Of a DNA stretch of 64,000 bases, positions 1,175 to 13,805 are shown in pieces (the first letter of the stretch is position 1; every line of letters begins with the position of its first letter). Below the pieces are notes generated by a model. It was not told the origin of the DNA. It ran no database searches and saw only the letters and a program-made list of their open reading frames with translations. The translations under genes and the position numbers were made by a program. This stretch comes from Hyperoplus lanceolatus (lineage: Eukaryota; Chordata; Actinopteri; Uranoscopiformes; Ammodytidae): assembly GCA_026929865.2 (NCBI GenBank), contig CM049408.1, forward strand, positions 62,001 through 126,000. Direction: 5' to 3'.

Positions 1175-1248
1175 GTTGCAGAACTGCCCTGCGGCCCAGT
1201 TCTTTAAGGGAAGGGATCATGCTCTGCTTCAATATGTCACAGTACATG

Positions 1249-1480
1249 TGTTGCAACTTATAATGTAATAAAGACTCATAATGTAATAACGGCTCATAAT
1301 GTAATAATTTCAATGTAATAAAAGTTCATAATGTAATAATCGTCACATAATGTAATACAATCACGGACGCGTAACGTAATAAGGGCTTTGCGCATAATGT
1401 AATAACTTATTACATTAAGAACCTTATTGATACCGCTCATAATGTTATAACAGCTCATAATGTAATAATAGCACATATAG
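1249..1480. repeat. Left terminal inverted repeat with ATAATGTAATAA array
   Basis: The left terminal repeat contains about ten copies of ATAATGTAATAA or close variants. Starts are near 1260, 1278, 1296, 1310, 1328, 1347, 1371, 1394, 1439 and 1457, so the common spacing is about 18 bp. One inverted TTATTACATTA sits at about 1407-1417. Such arrays in transposon ends usually act as transposase-binding sites; that role is inferred here. Confidence 0.85.
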
Positions 1481-2573
1481 TGAGAAAAGTGTTGCATTAT
1501 CATAATGTTTACTTCTGCCATCCCTGCAGGAGTGGAAGGAAATGCTTTCACCTCTGTCTGTCTCTCAGCAAGATCACAAATTTCTGCAAACATGCTGGAA
1601 CATTAGCCAACTTAGATGCCATATACTGAACCTCGCTCCCAATAAGTGGCAGGCCTCATAAAATGGAAAAGAAGCCTTATTATCATCATCCTCCATGGGT
1701 CAAATCCATGGTATAAAGGCAACAACTGTATACTGACAACTAATGCACTTTTGGGCAAAGGTTTGTTTTTGAGTTTGACTATGATTTGTACATAGGTTGC
1801 GCTACAGTAACCAACTCAAAAGCTGTCAGGAGAAGAGGTTGGATTAGGGAAGAAGGAGGGGGACTGTAGTTCATGTAGTTTAATGTTCTTTGCTACAATA
1901 ACTAATAACTCCTGCAATGAAAACACATTTAAAATTGGACTTTTCAAAAAAGTCAGTGAACACTCTTTCCTTCCATACAACCTTAAAAAAAAAAAAATGG
2001 AGCAGTTTTTTTTGTTGGTCTTTAATCCCAATTTAATAAAGGCTTTTAAACATTTTCCTACTACTTACGTGAAATACATGATACAAGCAGCATAACATGT
2101 TAATTCAAACTTCTTTTATTTTGGAACTTTTGAACAATAACAAAGAAGTCATCAAAAACGTTGGAGATCTGAACATCAAATTAGTCTCACAATATCTACC
2201 AGCTATAAACAGTATGTGAGTCTAGAACAGACATAGGGATGTCATAGAAAACATGAACCAGCTCAAAGGCTCTTTAAATGTAAACACAGCCTGTGATAAA
2301 TTTAACTAAACAATATGCCTATAAACATGATCATAAATTATAGTTGCCAACAAAAACTAGAACTGCAAGCAGTTATTAGGGGGCCAAGCCTTCCGGCGCA
2401 ACTCGGGACCCGGGCGTCGCAGACCGCGGCGCCAACCGCTCACTTCACGGAATCCGGGAATGTAAAGTTTTTGAATGTGGGATGTTCGGTTTGGGAGTTA
2501 TAGACCAAAAAGCAAAGAAATAGCATAGAAATAGGCTACAGTGGATGAGGAGATATATACTTTTTGTGTTTTT

Positions 2574-3468
2574 GGCGCCCCCTTATGGCGACATTTTCCA
2601 ATTTTTTTGATGAACGCTAATAAGGGTAGCACCAACGTACGTCTAAAATTTGGACCTGATATGATGTACAGTTTTGGATTTATGAATACTTATAATAATA
2701 TATATAAGGAAGTAACAGTTAGCTAATTTTTAAATATTCAAAGTGCTCCCGTTTCATCATCGAAGGTCGTATCAAATTTCTTTCGAACAAGTTTTTTCCG
2801 TGTGGGTCAGAAGATGTTCTGTGCGAAGTTTGGTGTCAATTGTGCAAAAATTGTGGGAGGAGTAGCAAAAAGTCAGTTTTTGCGAAAAATCTATATATAC
2901 GCAAATGTTTTAGACTGTGGGATGTTCGGTGTGGGAGTTATGAGCAAAAAGAGATTGTCAACCTCTCCACTGTAAGAAATTGGAGAAGCTGTCATTCTCT
3001 CCACTGTAAGAAGGAACAAAAAAAAATCTAATTTTATTAATAAGTCCCGCCCACATTACTATTTCTTGGCCATATTTTTTATATAGACTCGGGTATGCCC
3101 CTTGATGGTTTCCCTTGAGTTTTAAGAAAATTCCTTTGGCCAATTAGGAGATATAAAAATTCCTCGTTTATGGCGCCCCCTTATGGAGAAATTTTCCGAT
3201 TTTTTTATTGAACGCAATTAAGGGTAGCACCAACATATGTCTAAAATTTGGACTTGATCCGACTTATACTTTTGGATTTATGAATATTTACGTACAAGGA
3301 AGTAACAGTTAGCTAATTTTCAAATATTCAAAGCACTACGGTTTCGTCATCGAAGGTAGTATCAAAATTCTTTTACATGATTTTTTTCCGTATGGGTCGG
3401 TAGATGTTCTGTGCAAAGTTGGGTGTCAATTGTCCAAAAATTGTGGGAGGAGTAGCGAAAAATAAGTT
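2574..3468 (+). repeat. Two direct copies of an AT-rich block, ~598 bp apart
   Basis: Blocks beginning GGCGCCCCCTTATGG at 2574 and 3172 share long stretches, including AGGAAGTAACAGTTAGCTAA and TTGTGGGAGGAGTAGC. They are internal duplications of the nested non-coding element, diverged by scattered substitutions. Confidence 0.8.
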
Positions 3469-3770
3469 TTTCAGTTTTTGCGATTTTGCGAAGAAATTAT
3501 ACGCAAATGGGCGTGGCCTATGCCAAAAGATGCAGCTGACTCCAGTGAATCTGTGTATATAAAGTTTTTGATTGTGGGAGTTTCGGTGCGGGAGTTATGG
3601 CCCCAAACGCGTTTTCTTTGGTGTAGCGCCACCTAGTGGCTGGCATGTCTGATTTTTTTTGTCTGCGTAGTCCGGACGGACCTGGATCTAGTCATGCAAT
3701 TGGCATGTCTGCACCCTTTACGGTTTGGGCTGTGCACACAGTTTTAGGGAGGTACAAATAATAATAATAA

Positions 3771-4089
3771 TCCTTACTAAAACAATAGGGTTCCCTGCCC
3801 AGCAGGGCTTGGGAACCGCATTGCTCTGCATAACGCGGTCCCAGCTCCTGCTCGGGCTTGGCCCCCTAATAATCCTTACTAAAACAATAGGGTTCCCTGC
3901 CCAGCAGGGCTTGGGAACCGCGTTGCTCTGCATAACGCGGTCCCAGCTCCTGCTCGGGCTTGGCCCCCTAACAATAATAATAATAAAAATAATCCTTACA
4001 AAAACAATAGGGTTCCCTGCCCAGCAGGGCTTGGGAACCGCGTTGCTCTGCAAAACGCGGTCCCAGCTCCTGCTCGGGCTTGGCCCCCT
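3771..4089 (+). repeat. Triplicated 97-bp terminal unit
   Basis: Three copies of one 97-bp unit lie at 3771-3867, 3873-3969 and 3993-4089, separated by short AATAAT-rich spacers. The unit begins TCCTTACTAAAACAATAGGG and ends TTGGCCCCCT, and it includes the short palindrome CCCTGCCCAGCAGGG. Only a few substitutions separate the copies, so the triplication is young or homogenised. Confidence 0.9.
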
Positions 4090-4144
4090 AATAAAGTCAA
4101 GGGGGCTCCATTTCTCAGTGGTCAGTGACTGTGCCAGTGATCAC

Positions 4145-4447
4145 TCAAATCACTTTATTTCTTCCAATGAATGTCTTTAATATGGAACCATCCAAAGGAA
4201 TCACGATCCATGCTGTAAACCACCTGGCATTTTGGCTGAAGAGCTGCCTGATGTTGGATGCAAGGCCACTATTACATCCAGCTGCTTTATATAACCTACA
4301 AATACCAATGCTACAGTCTTCATCCGTCACAATATTTAAACATTCCACCAAAGAATCACGTATACATTTTTTTGGTAGGAATGGCAGGGTTAGCTCTCTG
4401 AACAAGTTGGAAACTCTGTTGAAGGCGTCATATCCATCAAAAGGCAA
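4145..4447 (-). pseudogene. Frameshifted C-terminal tail of the OTU-domain protein
   Basis: A 100-codon open stretch beginning MPFDGYDAFNRV overlaps the end of the upstream reading frame near 4390-4450. The upstream frame ends in a parallel but shifted reading of the same bases, so this looks like the authentic tail reached through a frameshift. It has several cysteines and ends GRNKVI. No family recognised. It may instead be a separate small gene of the transposon. Confidence 0.5.
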
Positions 4448-5838
4448 TACTGGATAATGGTTGACAGTCCAATCAAAGGCAAATTAGGGCTAGCAATGAA
4501 GTCAGGGTCAGCAGGGAAGATATGTTTTGGCACTGTAGGACATGCAGAAGGAACAGTATCAGGGTCAGTGTAACGGACAGTTTGGAGGTCACCATGTAGG
4601 ACATCATTGGGATCACCATAAGGAACATCACATGAGTCACCATGTAAGACATCACTGGAATCTCCAGGAGGGTAATTGGTGGGGTCAGAGTGATGGTCAG
4701 AGTCAGGGTTTGAATGGTGGTCAGAGTCAGGGACAGGATCAGAGCCAGTATTATAAAGAAGCACCCTCTGCTTCTCTGCTCTCTGAATTCTTTGAATGAA
4801 TGGTCTGACTGGTTCATCAAGACTAACATAATGGTCACCACAACCTTCAGAAAAATGGCCTAGAATCAGCAATGGCAGACTTTCATCGTAGTGACCATGT
4901 GGGGATACTATTGTTGTTGCATCAACTCCAAGCGTTGACACAATCATAACCTGTACATTGAATATGGTGGATGTTCTTTGTAGAGTCAAATGATCACCAT
5001 ATGTACCACTGTGCTGCATGCTTTGCACATAGTCATCCCATTGCCCTTCCACAAAATTAGAAAGATTTATTCCATTCATGGCATGTGGGTGAAGCATTAG
5101 GTCTGATACAATTTCTTGCCTTAAAGATGTTGCAGACCGAAAAATTCCAAGTGAGGCAAGTTGGTCAACCATGGCAGCAAACTGGCAGCTGCCATCTGAA
5201 TTAGGGTCCAAACGAGTCCTGAAACCTAGTGATCCAAAGGATTCTAACCTCATTCCATGGGTGATGGGCTGTAACAACTGTATGCGTTGATGTTTTCTGG
5301 CCTTGTGCTCAGAACGCTGCTTCTCCCGCTCCCTTGAGACACTTGTCACATCACATACTGCAAACCATTTGATATGTTGATGGCCTGGGTTGCCTAGCAT
5401 TCGGAACTTGACTTTGTATTTCGACAGATCTGCATTTCTTTTGACAACTATACCTGGTATCAGAGCGTATCGTTTTGAAAATCTGGGACCTGTGCTGACC
5501 CTCACCAACACTTTGTCCTGTAAGTTGTAAACTGATGGTGGTGGATTTCCCCTTGATTTAATCGTACGTTTCATGCAACGCTCCGTATCCTTTAAAGCCC
5601 TCCTTCGTATCTTCCTGCGGTTTTTCTCAAACTTACTCATATTCTGTTCCAAGTCTTCAGGAACTGCATCAGAAACTGAGCCGGGGCTAGCATCACCTGT
5701 ATTGATGGATAAGTGAAGAGTCCTGATATTATTCTTCCGCCCATAATACACTTCAAATGGAGACATCCAGTTGAGAACCTCTTTTTTGTCCAGATTCATA
5801 ACTCTTGCATAATTTGGCATGTGCTGCCCAGTTAACAC
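4390..5838 (-). pseudogene. Integrase C-terminal region fused to an OTU cysteine-protease domain
   Basis: A 482-codon open segment. Residues about 7-35 (PNYARVMN...SPFEVYYGR) match the region after the catalytic core of Gypsy-type integrases. Residues about 100-145 look like the following SH3-like, GPY/F-type module (VLVRVS...VVKRNADLSKYKVKF). Residues about 205-342 form an OTU-like protease: DGSC at 215-218 supplies the Asp and the nucleophile Cys, and DHYVSL near 335-340 supplies the catalytic His. Residues about 360-430 are a degenerate Asp/His/Pro-rich repeat (SDHHSDP, DVLHGD units). OTU proteins cleave ubiquitin or ubiquitin-like conjugates; the role in a transposon is unknown. The natural start is lost: the segment continues in another frame into the integrase core upstream. 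Confidence 0.75.
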
Positions 5839-6304
5839 CTCCTCGTTTGAAATTCATACATGATTTTTCGACGTAGCACCTGGTGTGTTCTCTCAACTTT
5901 ACCTTGGCTCTGGGGTGGTATGGAGAGCTCTGAATGACTTTGACCTGATATGATTCCATCAGCTTCTGGACTGCACCTTTGAATTCTTTGCCCTGATCAT
6001 GCTGCAAAATGTTGGGTGGGCCATGTTCAGTGTAGATTTCAATGAGATGTTTAGCAATCTCTTTGCTCTCTTTGCTCTTCAGAGGGTGTAGCCATATGTA
6101 TCTGCTACACACATCAAGGATGGTTAGAATGTACCTATATCTAACGTTTCTATGCTTGACAGCCCATCTCCCCATGTCGCGAAGGTCGATTTGATGACGC
6201 TCTTGAACTTTTTTTAGCCCTGATCGGCTTGGGAATGGCCTTGTTTTGAAAAGTAGCTCTGCGAAGTTGATAGCGCCTGGACCTGTCCAATACCTTTTGC
6301 ACAT
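5753..6304 (-). pseudogene. rve-type integrase catalytic core, frameshifted
   Basis: An open stretch covering the DDE integrase core. HQIDL (residues 37-41) carries the first Asp, ILDVCSRYIWLHPL follows, and QHDQGKEF (101-108) carries the second Asp where SDNG is more usual. The HPRA/GKVER region with the third acidic residue is reached only after a small frameshift near 5905-5915. A second shift near 5830 leads into the OTU segment, and a third near 6200 leads to the N-terminal part. This copy therefore cannot make a continuous recombinase. The core would catalyse strand transfer of the element ends; its resemblance is to Gypsy-type integrases, as in Ginger transposons. Confidence 0.8.
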
Positions 6305-6677
6305 TTTGTGTACTGAAGCCAGAATACTTATCCTTTAGGTATTCGTTAAGTTTTCTGGCACCACAGCCCTTGGTCTCTTCAAGCCCTGTCTTCACAATGC
6401 CTTTGAAGCTTGCCTTTTTTGCCACCAATTTCCCATCGTATATCAACGTCTTGCCGTCTTCCAATAGCCTAAACAAGTGCTTATTCCTCCAGAGGCGAAC
6501 AAGGGCAGCGTGTTGGACCCTTGTCCTTTCTTTAACAGGAATGCCAAATTCTCCTCTCAGTGCTTTAACAATGACATCATATGTCTCATCATCCATTTCT
6601 CGACTTCCATGGCCTTGAATGTCACTAACCAAAAGGGCCAGTGTGAATAGGACCAAGATTGTCATGCCCAGTTTCAT
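6150..6677 (-). pseudogene. N-terminal part of the integrase
   Basis: Residues about 28-150 are basic (KALRGEFGIP, VRLWRNKHLF, KLNEYLKDKYSGFSTQNVQK) and lead directly into the integrase core in another frame, so this is the likely N-terminal DNA- or zinc-binding region. The first 22 residues are hydrophobic, like a signal peptide. That may be a true start, or an accident of using this ATG at 6677. Function beyond integrase N-terminus is not recognised. A poorly conserved promoter region, 6678-6860, precedes it. Confidence 0.55.
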
Positions 6678-6879
6678 TGTTCCTTTTCTGTGAATAAAAC
6701 AAAATTCAGTGAATCAGTAGACATTGAGGTGGGGTATGCAGAAACTCTTTATATTCAGCATCACTAGATTAATGTAAATATTTATTTTTAACAAATCATT
6801 TATGTAAATACATTTTAGGATGGTGTGTACCCCTACAAATAATTTGATAACAAAACTTCTTCTCAAACGCCAGTCCACA

Positions 6880-6966
6880 TCATACTTTTATGGTCCAAGT
6901 GGGACTTGAATCGGCAACCTTTAAGTCCCCTAGCCAAGTCCCTACGGACTGAGCTATTGCCGCCCC
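6880..6966 (-). repeat. tRNA-derived SINE head
   Basis: On the minus strand this reads like a degenerate tRNA: an A-box-like TAGCTCAGTCCGTAGGGAC and a B-box-like GGTTGCCGATTCAAGTCC about 30 nt later. Fish genomes carry SINEs with such heads. It lacks a clean acceptor stem and is not annotated as a functional tRNA. Confidence 0.6.
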
Positions 6967-6990
6967 AGCTAAAACATACAACACTATTAA

Positions 6991-7115
6991 AACAAACATC
7001 TTAATACACAAGAAATAGCTGCTAGCTAAAACACAAGAAATAGCTGCTAGCAGTGCTAGCTAAAACACAATAAATAGCTGCTAGCTGAAACACAAAAAAT
7101 AGCTGCTAGCTTAAA
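6991..7115 (+). repeat. Short tandem repeat of GCTAGCTRAAACACAA units
   Basis: Four or five degenerate units containing AAATAGCTGCTAGC and TAAAACACAA lie side by side. AT-rich sequence follows to the right terminal repeat. No gene is seen from 6970 to 7440. Confidence 0.7.
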
Positions 7116-7439
7116 CATACACATTATTCTACAAACATCTTATTAATACACATAATTTAAACAGATAAGGTGTATGGCTTGGTTTAACAAATATATATAT
7201 TGAACTTTAAAAGGTCACAACTAGGGCTGCTTACCTGCAAAAGTCACAGTAGAAGTGAGCACGGCGTTCTCAGAATCCCAATTAGTGGCTCAACTGTTAT
7301 TTCACATCAATAAAATGTGAGAGTGCAATTATTATTAATTAATAGTACTTGGTTTCACAAATTTAGTTTACTAATGCACTGAAGCCCATGCCTTTTGCTT
7401 TTACTTGCAGCTTTGTTTGAGAGGTTAAATTATTATTAT

Positions 7440-7667
7440 TAATCACTATATGTGCTATTATTACATTATGAGCTGTTATAATATTATGAGCGGTATCATT
7501 AAGGTTCTTAATGTAATAAGTTATTACAGTATTACATTATGCGCAAAGCCCTTATTACGTTACACGTCCGTGATTTTATTACATTATGAGACGATTATTA
7601 CATTATGAACTTTTATTACATTGAAATTATTACATTATGAGCCGTTATTACATTATAAGTTGCAACA
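7440..7667. repeat. Right terminal inverted repeat with TTATTACATTAT array
   Basis: Mirror image of the left repeat, ending GTTGCAACA. The same motif recurs with nearly the same order and spacing, with one short insertion (about 7526-7534). The palindrome between the two ends is near-perfect apart from small indels. Confidence 0.85.
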
Positions 7668-7673
7668 TACATG

Positions 7674-11306: not shown

Positions 11307-11885
11307 CTGCCACAAACAAACACAAAGGAACAAAGAGATACAAAGAGAAAAGTACTTCTTAATTATCAGGTTGCTTTCATCATATCATGCAGTTACTATT
11401 CTTTAAAATGAGCTTTTCACTATATTGTCCTGTAGTGCTATACATTTAAACACAAACCATTGACATTTTGTAAACTACTTTGCCATATTTTAAAAATATC
11501 ATAACACTTCCGATATAAATACTAAGATTGAAATATTAAATGACTGGAGTAATCACTCAGTGACCATCTAGGCCAGGGATGGGCAGCTGATAAAAGGGAG
11601 GGCCATACAAATTTTCACCTCACTACCAGAGGGCCACGTACAGTATCTCACAAAAGTGAGTACACCCCTCACATTTCTTCACATTTTTCTTTATATCTTT
11701 CCATGGGACAACACTGAAGAAATGACACTTTGATACAATGTAAAGTAGTCAGTGTACAGCTTGTATAACAGTGTAAATTTACTGTCCCCTCAAAATAACT
11801 CGACACACAGCCATTAATGTCTAAACTGCTGGCAACAAAAGTGAGTACACCCCTTAGAAAAATTTTACAAATTGGGCCCAAAGTG

Positions 11886-12194
11886 TCAATATTTTGCTTT
11901 GCCATCATTATTTTCTAGCACTGCCTTAACCCTCTTGGGCATGTAGTTCACTAGAGCTTCACAGGTTGCAACTGGAACCCTCTTCCACCCATTTATGACA
12001 GCATCACAGAGCTGGTGGATATTAAAGACCTTGCGCTCCTCCACCTTCTGTTTGAGGATGCCCCAAAGATGCTCAATAGGGTTTAGGTCTGGAGACATGC
12101 TTGGCCAGGCCATAACCTTTACCCTCAGCTTTTTTAGCAAGCCACTGGTCGTCTTGGAGGTGTGTTTGGGGTCGTTATCATGTTGCAATACCAC
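11886..12194 (-). pseudogene. Tc1 transposase C-terminus, left arm (copy C)
   Basis: A 102-codon frame with LQHDNDPKHTSKT (second catalytic Asp), SMSPDLNPIEHLWGILK (third catalytic Glu) and a YMPKRVKAVLENNDG ending. The frame is clean, unlike the corresponding right arm, which has stops. Upstream of it the sequence changes strand at the foldback junction near 12221, so it has no HTH or first catalytic Asp. It cannot encode an active enzyme by itself. Confidence 0.85.
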
Positions 12195-12221
12195 CCTGCG
12201 GCCCAGTTTACGAAGGTTGAG

Positions 12222-13034
12222 TGCACGTGGTCAGCGTCGTACACAGAGGTTGGCTTTGGAAAATAGACGTATGAGTGCTGCCAGCATTGCTGAAGGGCTT
12301 GAAGGGGTGGGGGGTCAACCTGTCAGTGCTCAGACCATACGCCGCACTCTGCATCATACTGGTCTACATGGCTGTCATCCCAGAAGGAAGCCTATTCTAA
12401 AGATGATGCACAAGAAACCCCACAAAAAGTTTGCTGAAGACAAACAGACTACGGACATGGATTACTGCAACCATGTCCTGTGGTCTGATGAGACCAAGAT
12501 ACATTTATTTGGTTCAGATGGTGTTAAGAGTGTGGAGCGGCAACCAGGTGAGGAGTACAAAGACAAGTGTGTCTTGCCTAGAGTCAAGCATGGTGGTTGG
12601 AATGTCATGGTCTGGGGCTGCATGAGTGCTGCCAGCACTGGGGATCTACAGTTCATTGAATTCTAACATGTACTGTGACATACTGAAGCAGAGCATGATC
12701 CCCTCCCTTCATAAACTGGGCCGCAGGGCAGTACTGCAACATGATAACGACCCCAAACACACCTCCGAACGACCACTGGCTTGCTAAAGAAGCTGAGGGT
12801 AAAGGTTATGGACTGGCCAAGCATGTCTCCAGTCTTAAACCCTATTGAGCATCTTTGGGGCATCCTCAAACGGGAGATGGAGGAGCGCAAGGACTCTAAT
12901 ATCCACCAGCTCCTTGATGTCGTCATGAATGGGTAGAAGAGGGTTCCAGTGGCAACCTGTGAAGCTCTAGTGAACTACATGCCCAAGAGGGTTAAGGCAG
13001 TGCTAGAAAATAATGATGGCAAAGCAAAATATTG
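12222..13034 (+). pseudogene. Tc1 transposase, central and C-terminal parts (copy C)
   Basis: Open from 12222 to about 12663: QRLALENRRMSAASIAEG (second HTH subdomain), LWSDETKIHLFG (first catalytic Asp) and MVWGCMSAASTGDLQFIEF, then a stop. Further stops and a frameshift follow (12664-12780). SMSPVLNPIEHLWG shows the DL pair changed to VL. One more stop lies near 12931. The first ~60-100 residues expected of a Tc1 transposase are missing at the inverted-arm junction. Confidence 0.85.
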
Positions 13035-13805
13035 ACACTTTGGGCCCAATTTGTAAAATTTTTCTAAGGGGTGTACTCACTTTTGTTGCCAGCAGTTTAG
13101 ACATTAATGGCTGTGTGTCGAGTTATTTTGAGGGGACAGTAAATTTACACTGTTATACAAGCTGTACACTGACTACTTTACATTGTATCAAAGTGTCATT
13201 TCTTCAGTGTTGTCCCATGGAAAGATATAAAGAAAAATGTGAAGAAATGTGAGGGGTGTACTCACTTTTGTGAGATACTGTATATCAATATGCACTTTCA
13301 CCATTACAACCTTGTCACTTAATTGGCCTACTATAGCTAACTAATTTAATAAATAGAACAAAATATACTGGCAATCAAAGTTTATTATAACAATTTTCAA
13401 ACATCACAGACAATTTGGCTCTTTCAGTCAAGAACACATTACCCAAACAAGGCTCACTAGTGGGCCAACATTTTGAACATTTCTATTTTTCATTAGAAAG
13501 ATCAAAATGTTACCATTTACATATTTATTTTTCAAGAACAATCCATATTCCAACAATACAATTTCTATTTTCATAAGAAAAATCAAAATTTCAACATGGC
13601 ATGGGTGAGTTGTGAACTTTACACATAAACAAACATCCACATTCCTGAGTCATTATTTCAGTGCAATGGGGTCTCAAACAATTATTTAATATTGCTACAA
13701 AAACCAAAACATATCTCTTATAGTGCAATTCTTCTCTGCTCTTACATTACATAACATTTTTCTAATTATATTTCTCAAAATGTTATCCTCTGTAAAATCC
13801 TGTCT

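Follow-up and report, generated by a model that had tools for sequence, protein, structure and literature searches.

The transposon and its insertion site

The element occupies positions 1249-7667 (6,419 bp) of the window, the whole 64-kb stretch of DNA that was analysed, probably from a fish. Its termini, TGTTGCAAC at one end and GTTGCAACA at the other (TG..CA), belong to inverted repeats of approximately 225-235 bp. The outer arms (1249-1289 and 7627-7667) are 95% complementary and the longer arms (1274-1483 and 7443-7660) are identical in 204 of 218 aligned columns, which bears out the complete inverted ends described in the initial annotation. The motif CATAATGTAATAA is found 16 times in the two arms (allowing at most one mismatch) and nowhere else in the 64 kb, for a chance expectation of 0.25 in the whole window. 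The non-coding features are the following:

1243..1248, no strand: left target site duplication TACATG, a single copy at the paralogous empty site 12667-12672
1249..1483, plus: left terminal inverted repeat, whose repeated CATAATGTAATAA motifs are candidate sites for transposase binding
2373..4094, no strand: nested repeat bounded by TTATTAGGGGGCCAAGCC ends, which probably inserted later into the non-coding part of the element
7443..7667, minus: right terminal inverted repeat
7668..7673, no strand: right target site duplication TACATG, matching the left one
12667..12672, no strand: empty target site, single TACATG, in the Tc1-like copy 12146-13282

The element is a later guest of an older Tc1-like element. 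The minus strand of the same window holds a Tc1-like paralogue that runs unbroken from 13282 to 12146 and has a single TACATG precisely at the junction; when the flanks of the element are joined via one TACATG, they match this paralogue at 914 of 994 positions. The boundaries and the duplication length, although read from one element copy, therefore do not depend on inspection alone, and the perfect 6-bp duplication first proposed is confirmed by both flanks and by the empty site. Relatives with DNA flanks were also sought: none of 48 pattern matches in viral contigs was confirmed, and the 43 matches in genome contigs gave one locus, on a bacterial contig where 66 residues of the query matched, which was left out. 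An Rfam scan (E up to 0.1) yielded one match, far under its cut-off and inside the nested repeat, and an ARAGORN scan yielded no match.

A multidomain transposase

The transposase ORF lies on the minus strand (6677-4158). Comparison with relatives by tblastn recovers it in five pieces separated by four frame changes, with zero in-frame stops, in agreement with the single broken polypeptide that had been annotated:

6688..7234, minus: candidate 5'-leader intron, identified by eye, with a CAG/GTAAG donor and a TTTTATTCACAG acceptor right before the ATG
6612..6677, minus: signal-peptide-like leader MKLGMTILVLFTLALLVSDIQG, whose cleavage point is a guess
6213..6677, minus: ORF piece 1, leader and N-terminal domain without a detected zinc finger (tblastn with P0006; Pfam)
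5819..6250, minus: ORF piece 2, integrase core, first D at 6185-6187 and second D at 5996-5998
4426..5826, minus: ORF piece 3, end of the core, SH3-like domain, OTU, linker and start of the F-box-like part
4370..4500, minus: approximate extent of the F-box-like part within the C-terminal module, interrupted near 4425 by a frame change
4199..4423, minus: ORF piece 4, remainder of the F-box-like part, then the C-terminal alpha/beta domain, which contains WxxAW (P0001, 90.7%)
4158..4199, minus: ORF piece 5, final 14 residues (P0001, 100%)

Both annotated domains were recovered. The integrase core matches Pfam rve (E = 1.4e-11), and its third-acid block falls at the frame break after piece 2. The OTU domain (Pfam E = 2.8e-7; match at about 4882-5202, minus strand) has the fold and the Cys/His active site of OTU deubiquitinases, the reported catalytic motifs being located at 5185-5187 (Cys of DGSC) and 4831-4833 (His of DHYVSL).

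The start of the C-terminal module is predicted to have an F-box fold, a well supported reading based on a structure model and weak Pfam matches; SKP1 binding is putative. When the model of its first ~50 residues was used, the 22 best-aligned PDB entries were all F-box proteins. A Foldseek search of the module against PDB gave nothing significant (best E = 1.7; the Skp2 F-box had E = 2.2 and a probability of 0.57), and a profile search of PDB sequences gave six matches, among them no F-box, the best one being a helicase (E = 0.029). Against viral models, none of 214 matches reached E = 0.001 (best E = 0.097); the best 50 of the 214 include many giant-virus F-box proteins, several of them at a probability of about 0.99.

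Most family proteins begin with the leader; the architecture then comprises, in order, an N-terminal domain that lacks a zinc finger, the DDE core, an SH3-like domain, a basic stretch, the OTU cysteine protease, a variable linker, the F-box-like part and a small alpha/beta domain. The copy in the window is a defective member of this autonomous integrase-type (DDE) DNA transposon family. The initial annotation had overlooked the C-terminal F-box-like module, the leader and the explicit non-Ginger1 features (no H2C2, no GPY/F and no CCGG target). Several members bear other names in some databases, either KRAB-A domain-containing protein 2-like (P0086, P0114) or SCAN domain-containing protein 3-like (P0090, P0116, P0138). 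Pfam (E up to 1) detected no KRAB or SCAN domain in P0086 and P0138, the two that were scanned, and the names probably reflect the likeness of the integrase part.

A signal-peptide-like leader

DNA transposases are assumed to travel from the cytosol to the nucleus. A secretion-type leader is unexpected on a protein that must act in the nucleus, and it is the main surprise of this element. In the window, an in-frame stop sits 39 nt upstream of the ATG of the leader (48 if spliced). The leader is a conserved property of the family: of the 46 proteins in which 15 or more residues precede the first conserved block, 45 have such a leader, against 1 of 352 internal Met-started segments. A hydrophobic core of 11-23 uncharged residues (median 14) and an allowed -3/-1 pair are likewise present in 45 of the 46. 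These counts are anchored by an N-terminal HMM; its 12 seed proteins were chosen by a regex match close to the N-terminus, a choice that may bias it towards complete starts. That most proteins of an animal transposase family keep such a property while its letters vary was not anticipated.

Several scenarios may explain the leader. One, to which we give nearly even odds, is that it functions as a signal peptide or an anchor: the transposase would then enter the ER or its membrane and return to the cytosol and nucleus, and the OTU would shield it from ER-associated degradation. The conservation of the leader across the family speaks for this scenario, as does its presence with the OTU within a single ORF in 22 family proteins (HMM tally). 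Nevertheless, besides the catalytic cysteine just one other cysteine column, at 32/46, is present in at least half of the rows, and there is therefore little to suggest that the protein has adapted to oxidising conditions.

Alternatively, and with somewhat less than an even chance, the leader would not work as a signal peptide, being either a structural or DNA-contacting helix or a segment skipped by starting translation at a Met close to the conserved block. The cytosol and nucleus are the only places where the enzymatic parts would be of use. Moreover, eight family members begin at most 14 residues from the block, and the leader may therefore be absent in those. Of 29 leaders, 11 have a Met after the hydrophobic core, but the other 18 have none between core and block (this count covers the 29 of 45 leaders caught by a regex, which missed 16). 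A non-functional leader is also difficult to reconcile with the core and allowed -3/-1 pair of 45/46 proteins, with the low identity among leaders (median 0.29), which is itself signal-peptide-like, and with the GIN1 proteins, only 2 of 120 of which have a comparable hydrophobic N-terminal stretch.

A broader and rather doubtful extension of the signal-peptide scenario is that the transposase of a widespread lineage of animal transposons is produced as a protein of the secretory pathway. A working signal peptide would direct it to the ER, the OTU and F-box would help it to reach the cytosol again, or to be taken up by neighbouring cells, in intact form, and transposition could be gated by the secretory route or even carried between cells through it.

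Possible mechanism of transposition

The most likely mechanism would be a cut-and-paste integration carried out by the DDE core, with the OTU and F-box parts editing ubiquitin. The transposase would bind the repeated CATAATGTAATAA motifs of the inverted repeats, cleave at the TG/CA ends and join them to the target DNA with a 6-bp stagger. The OTU might strip ubiquitin, perhaps from the transposase itself, and the F-box part might bring an SCF ligase to the repair site or to some host factor. An action of the OTU on ubiquitin in repair during transposition was already proposed in 2010 for Ginger1 (PMC2836005). By combining in one protein DNA insertion with ubiquitin removal and the putative recruitment of a ubiquitin ligase, the family would offer a concrete case for that proposed role.

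Relationship to known transposons

Ginger1 transposons and their domesticated gene GIN1 resemble the element in their integrase with a C-terminal OTU (or Ulp1), their TIRs and their TGTNR end (PMC2836005), which reads TGTTG in the window; the TIR and element lengths are also inside the Ginger1 ranges. Ginger1 is described with H2C2, GPY/F and YPYY motifs and a 4-bp duplication of CCGG or CCGT/ACGG (PMC2836005). None of the 22 family proteins scanned contains Integrase_H2C2 (PF17921), whereas 4 of 4 Ginger1-derived GIN1 proteins used as a positive control do; of the 22, 12 hold the N-terminal block and the rest are cut or start later. Pfam does not detect it in the N-terminal ORF piece of the window either. 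The GPY/F motif, searched as GP[YFWC], occurs in 113 of 120 GIN1 rows but in none of the 46 family rows. Together with a duplication of 6 bp (TACATG, in one copy) that is neither CCGG nor CCGT, these absences speak against Ginger1 membership, which is rejected, and a Ginger1 transposon with an odd duplication is very improbable. The poor fit to Ginger that had been noted on duplication length is supported for Ginger1. Still less credible is that the element represents what is left of an LTR retroelement or integrating virus: the integrase fold is nearest to retroviral and Ty3 integrases, but the terminal repeats are inverted rather than direct, the empty site shows a 6-bp duplication, and Pfam detects no further retroelement or viral domain in the four ORF pieces scanned.

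A tree of the core was reconstructed with 22 family rows (including the window piece), 6 GIN1, one IS30 and one other bacterial DDE protein. The GIN1 sequences form a single clade (support 100/99), the window piece pairs with P0006 (98/87), and 20 family rows including the window piece cluster together (84/92, drawn open). P0024 and P0102 (87 aa) lie outside, beside very long bacterial rows, and the family is therefore not one side of a branch. The tree is weak at its base, with long branches flagged, and does not bear on the choice between IS3EU and Ginger.

IS3EU shares with the element its usual 6-bp duplications, an integrase-like core and the lack of an HHCC motif (PMC10045372, PMC12730594). 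Before the core start, His columns reach at least half of the rows only twice (20/33 and 26/35) and Cys columns never do; with H2C2 unmatched, the family therefore has no HHCC upstream of the core, as in IS3EU and GingerRoot. The suggestion that 6 bp fits IS3EU holds for the duplication length and fails for the termini, since complete IS3EU families are described as always having TA..TA ends (PMC10045372), unlike the TG..CA found here; neither PMC10045372 nor PMC12730594 uses the term OTU in its main text. GingerRoot, of the same lineage as IS3EU and supposed to occur in animals, also has an integrase-related transposase without HHCC and a 6-bp duplication, with TA..TA ends or occasionally, as in the element, TG..CA ends (PMC10045372).

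Provisionally, and by a comparison of descriptions, the element works like IS3EU/GingerRoot and is placed beside them, not in Ginger1. The integrase-type DNA transposon with an OTU and a 6-bp duplication initially annotated is supported, and the best explanation as a whole is a defective IS3EU/GingerRoot-like DDE transposon (probability of roughly 0.75, a figure from which the role of the leader is excluded). The proposal of a distinct lineage is supported by the leader, DDE, OTU and F-box-like architecture in animal homologues, which sets it apart from IS3EU by description rather than by a tree. Judging by titles and abstract starts, no DNA transposase with a signal peptide or F-box was apparent among the papers listed by searches of an open-access library. 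The available description of GingerRoot mentions no OTU, F-box or leader (PMC10045372) and that of Ginger1 mentions no F-box or leader (PMC2836005). The relatives of the element in other animals unite in one protein an enzyme that inserts DNA, an enzyme that removes ubiquitin and a likely adaptor for a ubiquitin ligase, in most cases preceded by the leader.

Target site and boundaries of the element

The two flanks of the transposon are parts of one Tc1-like element, of which a second, unoccupied copy is present in the same window (13282-12146, minus strand). In BLAST comparisons with this copy the left flank ends at 12667 and the right flank begins at 12672, so the flanks share exactly six bases on it, TACATG; when they are joined with a single TACATG, 914/994 positions are identical to the copy. 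This comparison establishes the perfect 6-bp target duplication proposed in the initial annotation and fixes both boundaries of the element, whose coordinates (1249-7667) prove exact to the base. Counting the unoccupied copy, two more Tc1-like stretches (12146-13282 and 11639-12208) show about 90% identity to the target element; their opposite orientations and overlapping ranges make them an inverted pair.

The element starts with TGTTGCAAC and ends with GTTGCAACA, and its inverted arms measure about 235 and 225 bp. Motifs of the CATAATGTAATAA type crowd both arms (16 copies with at most one mismatch, against an expectation of 0.25 across all 64 kb); at the same threshold none occurs elsewhere in the window. 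Some adjoining motifs are spaced by 18 bp. We infer that the motifs as a whole are candidate binding sites.

Features inside the element
2373-4094: nested repeat with ends TTATTAGGGGGCCAAGCC / GGCTTGGCCCCCTAATAA and internal duplicated stretches 82-87% alike, probably another non-autonomous element; its right end holds a 116-bp unit in three tandem copies
6677 to about 4158, minus strand: single transposase ORF, ATG at 6677
6878-6967: tRNA-like stretch, resembling box A and box B by eye
7002-7117: short repeats of about 50 bp (AGAAATAGCTGCTAGC...), close to the right inverted repeat

Transposase gene

Comparison with relatives by tblastn bears out the single broken polypeptide described initially, in five pieces separated by four frame changes (near 6213-6250, 5820, 4425 and 4199). 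The lack of in-frame stops across these 2.5 kb suggests that the decay is fairly recent, yet the two arms differ at 14/218 columns. Close relatives exist, since the nearest proteins share 94% (P0001) and 92% (P0002) identity with the 487-residue query across 41% of its length; the nearest homologue carrying an organism name is P0005, from Epinephelus moara, which together with the Tc1-like surroundings points to a fish host. A good splice donor (7234) and acceptor (6688) suggest a 5' intron. The tRNA-like stretch lies within this candidate intron and may be a SINE; neither ARAGORN nor Rfam gave a match in it.

A signal-peptide-like leader

The set comprises 141 proteins, namely the window copy and its 140 homologues. 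The conserved N-terminal block is present in 61, and in 46 of them, including the window copy, at least 15 residues lie ahead of it. An 11-residue stretch of mean hydropathy ≥2.0 is found in 45 of these 46 leaders (the sole exception is P0091), in 1/352 internal Met-started segments and in 17/4,125 internal segments of any kind from the same proteins. The 15 proteins left out begin 1-14 residues before the block (8) or at or inside it (7); the former (P0010, P0016, P0024, P0058, P0063, P0076, P0079, P0092) may have no leader, and the frequency over all proteins beginning ahead of the block is 45/54. The 46 leaders comprise 40 different sequences. Leaders have a median identity to one another of 0.29, versus 0.39 for the following 80 residues. 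The window copy has a stop codon in frame 39 nt before the leader ATG (48 if spliced), which indicates that the leader is not inside a longer protein. Leader, OTU and C-module (the C-terminal part) occur together in one ORF in 11 proteins, of which P0037-P0039 share one leader.

The uncharged hydrophobic run spans 11-23 residues (median 14) and reaches 20 or more in just 3 leaders, a length closer to that of a signal peptide than to that of a membrane span. A K or R residue stands ahead of it in 35/46 leaders, and a pair permitted by the loose -3/-1 rule follows it in 45/46. These hydropathy, run-length and residue counts lead us to read the leader as signal-peptide-like.

Possible mechanism

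The anatomy implies that the DDE core would integrate the element with a 6-bp stagger. OTU and the modelled F-box bring opposing ubiquitin functions into one polypeptide: the F-box could steer an SCF ligase to a host factor or repair site, while OTU would spare the transposase. Between the SH3-like and OTU domains lies a basic stretch (consensus KKxHRxKY, by eye) that could serve as a nuclear signal. The leader is at odds with this scheme unless the protein comes back from the ER, or the leader is inefficient or skipped. A Met after the hydrophobic core, which could act as a second start, is present in 11/29 leaders examined and absent from 18/29. We consider it about as likely that the leader provides a functional ER route as that it is non-functional or bypassed.

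Comparison with known transposons

OTU is combined with DUF4371 in the proteins P0029 and P0031; we take DUF4371 to be a domain of hAT-type transposases, which would make these a second transposon type bearing OTU. A hydrophobic stretch like that of the leaders lies within the first 40 residues in only 2/120 proteins of GIN1, the gene domesticated from Ginger1, versus 35/45 in the transposase family. OTU on an integrase transposase, with the ubiquitin idea, was already in print in 2010 for Ginger1 (PMC2836005); among papers listed by open-access literature searches, titles and abstract beginnings showed no F-box module or signal-peptide-like leader on such transposases. Ginger1 itself, as defined in PMC2836005, is rejected on H2C2, GPY/F and target duplication. 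The element resembles IS3EU in duplication length (6 bp) and in the absence of HHCC from its family, but lacks the TA..TA ends required there. GingerRoot, in PMC10045372, groups with IS3EU (bootstrap 99) and permits TG..CA ends, as in the element. Judged by duplication, ends and HHCC absence against these published descriptions, the element is provisionally placed as a variant beside the IS3EU/GingerRoot lineage.
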